From assembly GCA_027491315.1 (NCBI GenBank), contig JAIXWL010000004.1, positions 124,001 through 188,000 on the forward strand: a stretch of 64,000 nucleotides of DNA, written 5' to 3'. Shown piece after piece: positions 31,383 through 34,381 of this stretch. The position numbers were made by a program, and so were the translations under genes. The DNA is from Cytophagaceae bacterium (GTDB lineage: Bacteria > Bacteroidota > Bacteroidia > Cytophagales > Spirosomataceae). Each line of letters starts with the position of its first letter. The stretch's first letter is position 1. The notes under the pieces were generated by a model that worked only from the letters and a program-made list of their open reading frames with translations, was not told where the DNA came from and did no database searches.

Positions 31383-32663
31383 ATGGCAGTTGATGTATTA
31401 TTAGGCTTACAGTGGGGTGATGAAGGGAAAGGGAAAATTGTAGATGTTTTAGCACCTCGTTACCAGGTTGTGGCGAGATTTCAAGGAGGACCCAATGCGG
31501 GCCATACCTTGGAGTTTGATGGTTTTAAGCATGTGTTGCATCAGATTCCATCGGGTATTTTCCGTCAGGAAGTACAGAATATTATCGGAAATGGCGTGGT
31601 TTTAGATCCCATCATTTTTAAGAAGGAAATCGAAGGATTAGCGCATTTTAACCTTGATTTGAAGAAAAACCTGGAAATCTCCAAGAAAGCGTCCATCATT
31701 TTGCCTACGCACCGTTTGTTGGATGCTGCTTATGAACTAGCTAAAGGAAAAGAAAAAATTGGTTCTACCCTAAAAGGAATTGGACCTACTTATACAGACA
31801 AAATTTCTCGTCAGGGATTGCGTGTAGGTGATATGATTTCGCCTAATTTCTCTGAGAAATACAAGGCCCTAGTGGATCGCCATAAAGCGATTTTGGATGT
31901 GTATAAATTTGAATATGATTTGGCGGAAGCTGAGGCGGCATTTTTTGAGGCCGTGGATTTCATGAAGCAATTTGCTTTAGTTGATTCCGAATATTCGGTT
32001 AACAACGCCATTAATTTAGGCAAGACCATTTTAGCGGAAGGAGCTCAAGGTTCATTATTGGACGTTGACTTTGGGTCTTACCCATTTGTTACTTCATCCA
32101 ATACCATTACGGCGGGAGCTTGTACCGGTTTAGGGGTAGCTCCTAAAAACATCGGAGAAGTGTTTGGTATTTTTAAGGCCTATGCTACACGTGTGGGATC
32201 AGGTCCATTCCCAACCGAATTAGAAGATGAAGTGGGAGAAGCGATGCGTCAAGAAGGTCGTGAATTTGGTTCTACGACCGGTCGTCCTCGTCGATGCGGT
32301 TGGATAGATTTACCAGCATTAAAATACGCCATGATGATTAATGGCGTTACGCAATTGATCATGATGAAGGCGGACGTCCTAAATATTTTTGAAGAAATTT
32401 TGGTTTGTACTGCCTATGAAATGCCAGATGGCACCGTGACAGATCAAATTCCATTTGAGATAACCGATATCAAGGTAAAACCTATTTATGAAACTCTTCC
32501 AGGGTGGCATTGCAGTTTAGAAGGAATGCGTGATTTTAATGAATTACCTGCTGAATTGACAAATTACATTGCTTTCTTAGAGAAACACTTGAACTTACCG
32601 ATCAACTTCATTTCTACAGGCCCAGATCGTGAGGCTTGTGTTTTAAGAGGATCATTGGCATAA
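31383..32663 (+). CDS. purA: Adenylosuccinate synthetase
   Basis: This 426-residue enzyme makes adenylosuccinate from IMP, aspartate and GTP. The N-terminal GLQWGDEGKGK (GTP/IMP site, residues 8-18), GGPNAGHT near 36, and the C-terminal STTGRPRRCGWID are classic. Length is normal. The next gene, the psi-like protein, starts seven bases after its stop. Confidence 0.96.
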   Translation: MAVDVLLGLQWGDEGKGKIVDVLAPRYQVVARFQGGPNAGHTLEFDGFKHVLHQIPSGIFRQEVQNIIGNGVVLDPIIFKKEIEGLAHFNLDLKKNLEISKKASIILPTHRLLDAAYELAKGKEKIGSTLKGIGPTYTDKISRQGLRVGDMISPNFSEKYKALVDRHKAILDVYKFEYDLAEAEAAFFEAVDFMKQFALVDSEYSVNNAINLGKTILAEGAQGSLLDVDFGSYPFVTSSNTITAGACTGLGVAPKNIGEVFGIFKAYATRVGSGPFPTELEDEVGEAMRQEGREFGSTTGRPRRCGWIDLPALKYAMMINGVTQLIMMKADVLNIFEEILVCTAYEMPDGTVTDQIPFEITDIKVKPIYETLPGWHCSLEGMRDFNELPAELTNYIAFLEKHLNLPINFISTGPDREACVLRGSLA

Positions 32664-32670
32664 AAAGAAC

Positions 32671-33318
32671 ATGGCTTCGGATCGAATTGATTTGGCAGAA
32701 TTGTATAAGTTCGATGAGATTTACTGGATTCCAGCAGATCGGCCTAGCATTCCATCCGAAGCTTCTGTTTTATCTGAGCCTGAGCCTCTAGCAAGTCAAG
32801 AAGTAGAGCTCCCGGTTGCCACCCTTGCTCCTCAGGTTGAAAAGGAGACTAATTCCACTCAAGATAAAGCCAGTATTCCATCTGGTCCAGGTCTTCAAGC
32901 AAGCTTTGTAGAAAAAATCGTTACTGAGCCGACAGCCCCTCATGAGGTTTCAACAACTTTGCCGACTGTCAATTGCCGTTTGGTCGTAGTAGGGAAAATC
33001 AATGCCACAGAAAAAGAGCGTTTGCAATTAGTTTTATCGGCTTCTCCGGTTTCCCTTCAAGCGAATGATTGGCAAATTCTAGAACCCATGGAAACCTTCA
33101 CATTGGACGAATTCGTGGATGGTACCCACGCTCAATGGTACGTGTTTTTAGGTGATCAAATCCCCGCTTGGAAGGAACAATTATCAGAAGGAAAAATCAT
33201 CAGTCGGGTGAACAAAAAGGTGTATCATTTCCCTCGACTAATATCCAGCTTAAAAGACTCCGAAAAACCATTGAAATTAGCATTTTGGAATGCTATGAAA
33301 GAAATTGTCAATGGTTAA
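32671..33318 (+). CDS. Putative DNA polymerase III psi (HolD)-like protein
   Basis: This 215-residue protein has no annotated family I can name with certainty. It has three parts: a conserved-looking N-terminal segment (residues 4-25, RIDLAELYKFDEIYWIPADRP), a Pro/Glu/Ser-rich linker (about 26-98), and a compact alpha/beta domain (100-213). The order and several motifs parallel E. coli HolD as I recall it: a tau-binding N-terminus ending in RRP, a strand RLV.V followed by a helix and an SP turn, and a C-terminal helix with a tryptophan (here LAFWNAMKEI). This is inference; sequence similarity is weak. It starts seven bases after purA, so it is likely co-transcribed. Confidence 0.5.
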   Translation: MASDRIDLAELYKFDEIYWIPADRPSIPSEASVLSEPEPLASQEVELPVATLAPQVEKETNSTQDKASIPSGPGLQASFVEKIVTEPTAPHEVSTTLPTVNCRLVVVGKINATEKERLQLVLSASPVSLQANDWQILEPMETFTLDEFVDGTHAQWYVFLGDQIPAWKEQLSEGKIISRVNKKVYHFPRLISSLKDSEKPLKLAFWNAMKEIVNG

Positions 33319-33382: not shown

Positions 33383-34381
33383 TTACATCGCCATTCTTGG
33401 CAGCGGACTTACATCTTGACCACAGAAAATACCTGCTTCTGCTTTAAAATGTCCCGCCATGGCAATCATACCAGCGTTATCAGTGCAATAGGAAAATGCT
33501 GGAATAAAGACATCCCAATGCTGTTGAGTCCCTAATGCTTGAATACCATTCCTAAGTCCGGAATTTGCAGCTACTCCACCAGCAATGGCAATTTGCTGAC
33601 AGTTTTTTTCCTTCATGGCTTTTTTGACCTTGCGCAGTAACATGTCGATCAATGTTTTTTGAACCGAAGCACAAATGTCCGCCTTATTTTCTTCAATGAA
33701 CTGTGGATTATTCTTTTGTTCTTTTTGTAAAAAATAGAGAATAGCCGTTTTAATACCTGAAAAAGAAAAATCTAGTCCCGGCATTTCCCCTAAAGGAAAT
33801 GAGAATCTATTGGGGTCTCCTTCCCTAGCTAATTTATCAATCATGGGGCCACCTGGATAGGGTAGACCTAGGAGCTTAGCTGTTTTATCAAAAGCTTCCC
33901 CCACGGCATCATCCTGGGTCTCACCAATGACTTCCATGTCCAAAGCACTTTTAACCCAAACCAGCTGCGTATGACCACCGCTCACGGTTAAGCAAAGGAA
34001 GGGAAATTGGGGTTTAGGCTCTTCAATAAAGTGGGCCAACACATGGGCTTCCATGTGGTTCACTTCGATCAATGGAATTTGTAAACTTAGTGCTAGGGCT
34101 TTAGCAAATGAGGTACCAATTAAGAGGGCGCCCAATAAACCAGGGCCACGCGTAAAGGCAATGGCATTCAGTTCATTTTTGTTTATATTTGCTTTTTGCA
34201 GAGCCTCCTGTACAACAGGTATGATGGATTTTTGATGAGCTCTGCTGGCTAATTCCGGAACTACTCCTCCCCATTGGGTATGGATTAGTTGAGTGGATAC
34301 AATGTTCGAACGAAGTTCTCCGTTTACCATAATGGCAGCGGATGTTTCGTCGCAGGAAGATTCAATGGCCAGTAGTTTCAT
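33383..34381 (-). CDS. tsaD: tRNA N6-threonylcarbamoyladenosine transferase subunit
   Basis: This 332-residue ASKHA-fold enzyme completes t6A modification at position 37 of ANN-decoding tRNAs. The metal-binding NHMEAH (H109, H113), the N-terminal AIESSCDETSAA, SGGHTQL and the C-terminal AIAGGVAANSGLR are present. Length is normal. It converges on the psi-like gene and is divergent from the TamB-like gene. Confidence 0.95.
   Translation of the reverse strand: MKLLAIESSCDETSAAIMVNGELRSNIVSTQLIHTQWGGVVPELASRAHQKSIIPVVQEALQKANINKNELNAIAFTRGPGLLGALLIGTSFAKALALSLQIPLIEVNHMEAHVLAHFIEEPKPQFPFLCLTVSGGHTQLVWVKSALDMEVIGETQDDAVGEAFDKTAKLLGLPYPGGPMIDKLAREGDPNRFSFPLGEMPGLDFSFSGIKTAILYFLQKEQKNNPQFIEENKADICASVQKTLIDMLLRKVKKAMKEKNCQQIAIAGGVAANSGLRNGIQALGTQQHWDVFIPAFSYCTDNAGMIAMAGHFKAEAGIFCGQDVSPLPRMAM

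Follow-up and report, generated by a model that had tools for sequence, protein, structure and literature searches.

In Escherichia coli, the N-terminus of psi (HolD) enters the collar of the DnaX clamp loader and touches three DnaX subunits (PMC11253446), and psi links the loader to chi, which binds SSB (PMC3197488). The psi of Pseudomonas aeruginosa, which is about twice as long as that of E. coli and has an unstructured N-terminal region, escaped sequence comparison and was recognized through co-purification (PMC3197488). In two further papers, psi is listed in gammaproteobacteria only, with diverged and undetected homologues suspected in other proteobacteria (PMC3290774), and HolC and HolD are confined to gammaproteobacteria (PMC8092217). 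A literature search by titles and the beginnings of abstracts (most subscription journals lie outside it, and 'HolD' also matches 'hold') found, among the papers listed, none naming a Bacteroidota psi.

The window analyzed here is a stretch of 64,000 nt (GCA_027491315.1, contig JAIXWL010000004.1, positions 124,001-188,000, forward strand) from a member of the order Cytophagales whose named relatives include Aquirufa species. The initial annotation had suggested that a psi subunit was hidden behind purA, and a 215-aa reading frame does directly follow that gene (Table 1). We propose that its product is a strongly diverged homologue, in Bacteroidota, of the clamp-loader (DnaX) accessory subunit psi, and place the probability of this reading at about three in four. 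The reading frame is a true gene rather than a chance one, since it was found in 35/37 genomes of the genus, its own genome counted. Of the two genomes without it, G004 yielded just a purA fragment of 89 positions, and no purA was found in G034 (62% complete). Downstream lies a convergent gene that we take, from its sequence, to be tsaD.

Table 1. Features of the psi-like gene, its product and its neighbours (positions within the window)
Feature	Position	Strand	Basis
purA (adenylosuccinate synthetase), upstream neighbour and synteny anchor	31383..32663	+	PF00709, E 9.5e-167
psi-like gene, 215 aa	32671..33318	+	ATG start; 7 bp after purA stop codon
Residues 1-26, conserved N-terminal peptide LAELYKFDEIYWIPADRP, a segment that may bind the DnaX collar	32671..32748	+	A1 invariants; hmmsearch with A3
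Residues 27-96, hypervariable tether, predicted disordered	32749..32958	+	dN; pLDDT; far shorter in relatives of 155-162 aa
Residues 97-215, psi-like alpha/beta C-terminal domain	32959..33315	+	hhalign to A3; AlphaFold2 model
Residues 187-209 FPRLISSLKDSEKPLKLAFWNAM, putative equivalent of the final-helix motif of psi (SPALTDLRANPTARAALWQQI in E. coli)	33229..33297	+	K202 and W206 invariant in A1
Presumed tsaD, convergent downstream neighbour	33383..34381	-	ORF list; match on opposite strand in most genus loci

A 12-row alignment of proteins of the type found in Aquirufa (A1) falls into three parts, with a conserved N-terminal peptide and a conserved C-terminal domain joined by a linker free in both length and sequence. 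The motifs quoted in the initial annotation could all be located, namely ADRP (residues 22-25), RLVVVG (103-108), a helix (112-123) followed by SP (125-126), the strand W156YVFLGDQIP and the final helix motif from F187 to M209. Invariant positions in A1 comprise L8, A9, L11, I17, Y18 and W19 in the N-terminal peptide and include G108, W134, G161, F187-R189, K202 and W206 in the C-terminal domain. The linker, previously described as disordered-looking, diverges fast, with dN of 0.49-0.87 for residues 27-96 against five relatives, compared with 0.15-0.26 for the C-terminal domain (dS was usable in one comparison alone, at 4.4). It is also predicted to be disordered: the full-length AlphaFold2 model has a mean pLDDT of 65, with segments 1-5, 14-68 and 71-94 below 50, a mostly low-confidence N-terminal peptide carrying a short helix at residues 8-11, and a confident C-terminal domain. 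Modelled alone (residues 98-215), this domain has the alpha/beta build that had been described for it (pLDDT 83, pTM 0.77).

Aligned with E. coli psi (HolD, PF03603; PDB 1em8, 3sxu, 3gli), the protein follows the same order of elements: an N-terminal peptide, a linker, a beta-alpha start, a strand carrying 'LG' and a tryptophan-bearing last helix. In alignment A8, columns L12, G91 and W122 (E. coli numbering) are kept in 11/11 rows, the tryptophan of the W206 motif aligning with W122. The two proteins differ in that identity in A8 is 17%, the window protein has a long hypervariable linker, no chi was found to accompany it, and its own sequence falls under every model cut-off. The P. aeruginosa psi, alike in its length and unstructured N-terminal region, differs in that its N-terminus binds DNA and chi is present (PMC3197488).

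Searches of Pfam, NCBIfam and PDB sequences with the window protein alone were all negative, and a Pfam scan of five Aquirufa relatives likewise returned no match. Searches with A1 gave two matches in 146 genomes of the order and, at E<=10, 35 matches in 59 relatives, all of them within the genus. A second, common form was found through synteny: immediately behind purA, two genomes from a different genus within the same GTDB family have a gene whose product shows the same three-part build. Used as a query, a common-form protein was matched in 107/120 genomes of the family. The other 13 comprise 12 from the genus of the window, every one of which carries the Aquirufa-type gene with purA beside it, and one genome of another genus (G202), in which an Aquirufa-type gene located by synteny rather than by A1 lies 1 bp behind purA. 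The two forms are thus complementary, and when several separate searches and locus readings are joined, 120/120 family genomes carry one form.

Conservation of the neighbourhood is partial. Of 50 common-form loci inspected in the family, 19 have purA ahead of the gene in the same orientation, and the gene then starts anywhere from 4 bp before the purA stop codon to 462 bp beyond it; no purA was seen upstream within the short flank examined at 15 further loci (L174-L188), 14 of which are from other families. The gene at L156 lies directly behind purA, and its protein scores above the Pfam psi cut-off. The protein at L154 (G187:C51) also passes that cut-off; its gene neighbours a tsaD of opposite orientation, and the flank examined contains no purA. 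Between them, these two loci adjoin both neighbours of the window gene.

To compare the forms, we used a 41-row common-form alignment (A3) that reaches other families of the class. Eight of its rows were drawn from one set of 30 loci, 20 from a second set and 13 from a set of 16 loci; L137, L183, L174 and L189 were left out (the last two being the same gene as L152), the start codons of many rows were picked by eye, and loci from the whole-genome A3 search were not added. The alignments A1 and A3 match over residues 99-215 in hhalign (95.6%, E 1.1e-8), with a score of 58.3 compared to 11.8 and 11.2 for reversed decoys and at most 24.3 for 100 column-shuffled ones. An unfiltered hmmsearch with A3 among the 194 ORFs of the window recovered the psi-like gene only (E 1.5e-6; next 0.48), its 22.1 bits exceeding the 8.1 bits of the best of 2000 shuffled copies, and the alignment spans the N-terminal peptide to the C-terminus. 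A3 also matches 32/32 distinct Aquirufa sequences, the weakest at E 0.001 in a database of 32. The K and W of the C-terminal helix motif are invariant in A3 as well as in A1. The whole-genome A3 search missed the window gene, which the unfiltered search detects; across the phylum, the profile without further iteration matches 32/296 genomes, and phylum-wide presence is therefore not claimed.

It could be argued that the Aquirufa-type protein is a non-orthologous replacement at a site formerly held by the common form, and A1 indeed gave no signal against one single common-form protein (0.4%). This scenario is very improbable given that the A3 match runs over the whole length from peptide to C-terminus, that the C-terminal domains match far above decoys, and that position and three-part architecture are the same. 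Both profiles, moreover, matched the G202 protein in a small local search, one scoring 99 bits and the other 18 bits with a bias of 9.

The common form in turn connects to psi. The first two common-form proteins had one match each in Pfam, to DNA_III_psi (E 0.05 and 0.034), and one match each in NCBIfam, again to psi. When all 41 members of A3 were scanned against Pfam at E<=1, psi was returned in 26 (best E 8.6e-7) and 20 other families appeared once each. Scored singly, ten members hand-picked from the 41 gave psi in nine, in one of these second to another family, and three of the ten lie above the PF03603 cut-off (29.7, 28.2 and 24.8 bits against 22.2). Five psi models of NCBIfam were matched, in 8, 4, 3, 2 and 1 members (best E 5.7e-4), compared with one member each for the non-psi families among the 25 listed of 28, some of which have similar E-values.

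The profile comparison with HolD proposed in the initial annotation succeeded through this intermediate and failed directly. A profile of three enterobacterial psi sequences aligns with A3 (68%, E 4.8e-5), scoring 33.5 against at most 21.3 for 150 decoys. Single enterobacterial sequences scored a modest 9.7 bits (Proteus), 2.3 (E. coli) and 1.0 (Klebsiella) against A3; A3 compared with E. coli HolD alone was not significant, and it matched no chain among PDB sequences. A1 set directly against enterobacterial psi scored 12.4, under the mean of its decoys (12.9), and thus gave no signal. The window protein likewise fails the curated model, with no PF03603 match in its own genome (the E. coli control was positive), and Pfam returned no psi match for 6/6 Aquirufa-type proteins, including that of G202, which had two weak matches to other families. 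We nevertheless regard homology of the C-terminal domain to psi by descent as supported, because the sequence comparisons form a chain from the window protein to A3 and from A3 to the Pfam and NCBIfam psi families and enterobacterial psi; synteny behind purA further agrees with this. The suggestion of psi homology made from the window sequence is hence supported by way of intermediates.

Structural comparison gave a mixed outcome, yielding a confident alpha/beta domain and no psi chain among the best 50 of 677 Foldseek rows for the full model or the best 50 of 954 for the domain-only model; since these were the best 50 rows only, psi may rank lower in both lists. The seven top rows for the full model are family-4/UdgX uracil-DNA glycosylases (probability 0.99-1.00, E 3.1e-3 to 8.8e-3), which could mean that the protein is unrelated to psi and belongs to a uracil-DNA-glycosylase or Rossmann-like fold, its motifs being convergent. 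The resemblance is loose, though, with TM-scores of only 0.34-0.39 and rmsd of 5.1-5.5, and the domain-only model gave nothing significant (best row E 0.058) and no glycosylase among its best 50 of 954 rows. Profile comparisons controlled with decoys also tie the protein to a family scoring as psi, and we judge an unrelated origin to be quite improbable. The initial annotation ascribes a uracil-glycosylase-like fold to psi itself. If this relation is true, the glycosylase matches would not conflict with a psi assignment; our literature search found no paper joining psi and uracil-DNA glycosylase.

No match to chi (HolC, PF04364) was found in the genome of the window, with positive controls in E. 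coli and Caulobacter, and none of 198 Bacteroidota genomes had a chi match above the cut-off. Weak matches occur in four genomes of one distant family (L220-L223; E 1.6e-4 to 8.5e-4, below the cut-off), inside frames of 456-625 aa, and are probably not chi. A strongly diverged chi may lie beyond detection. Domain III of DnaX is present in the genome of the window (PF12169, E 1.9e-12). Given a DnaX with domain III, a conserved N-terminal peptide and no detected chi, we propose a psi-like subunit of the loader whose bridging role has changed or been lost. Chi binding is a feature of HolD proper, and no chi was found here; the protein is accordingly classed as a psi homologue.

On the model of psi in E. 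coli, the peptide of residues 1-26 would fold onto the collar that the three DnaX subunits build from their domain III, and would stabilize the loader; this loader-binding part probably works like that of psi. Residues 27-96 would act as a loose tether whose sequence is not conserved, and the alpha/beta domain would offer a docking surface to another protein of the replication fork. Chi, not found in the genome, is unlikely to be this partner; as guesses, we name SSB, primase or DNA itself. Binding to DnaX, stabilization of the loader and the identity of the partner are all extrapolated from the E. coli system.

The same absence of chi, in this genome and above the cut-off in the 198 others, would also be expected of a protein that descends from psi and has left the clamp loader, its domain being recruited elsewhere, for example to DNA repair or to a task linked with purine synthesis. 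The strong divergence in Aquirufa points the same way, as does the fact that A1 found no member outside the genus (that of G202 came from synteny). We consider such a departure unlikely in view of the core distribution of the gene over both forms in the family sample, the DnaX domain III encoded in the same genome, and the retention of the N-terminal peptide, the very part that binds the DnaX collar in E. coli (PMC11253446). A purine-linked role in particular is disfavoured because purA adjacency is kept in just 19/50 common-form loci.

If the psi-like reading is correct, psi would be nearly invisible to annotation in Bacteroidota, as only 2/392 genomes of the phylum score above the PF03603 cut-off in a whole-genome search (in one, G388, the match coincides with a hit of A3). 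A few Bacteroidota members are thus already visible to Pfam, and some may be annotated as psi in public records. A broader scenario, whose chances we see as evenly balanced, is that Bacteroidota have a chi-free psi: a core, fast-evolving loader subunit whose N-terminal peptide would plug the DnaX collar and whose C-terminal domain would couple the loader to a different fork partner. The psi part of the clamp loader would then be older or more widely spread than thought and separable from chi, and a psi without chi would allow a direct test of which psi function came first, loader stabilization or SSB coupling.

Additional copies were seen in a few genomes. In the genome of L005, a segment lying some 1.6 kb downstream from the intact gene (G033:C31:144635-144781) matches the last 44 profile positions and contains four stop codons; it appears from its sequence to be a decayed partial copy of the psi-like gene. 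In a pair of genomes from a single genus, a 245-aa frame gives an additional, weaker match to the common form (G208:C6:135555-135869 and G190:C17:126588-126902) and is possibly a paralogue.
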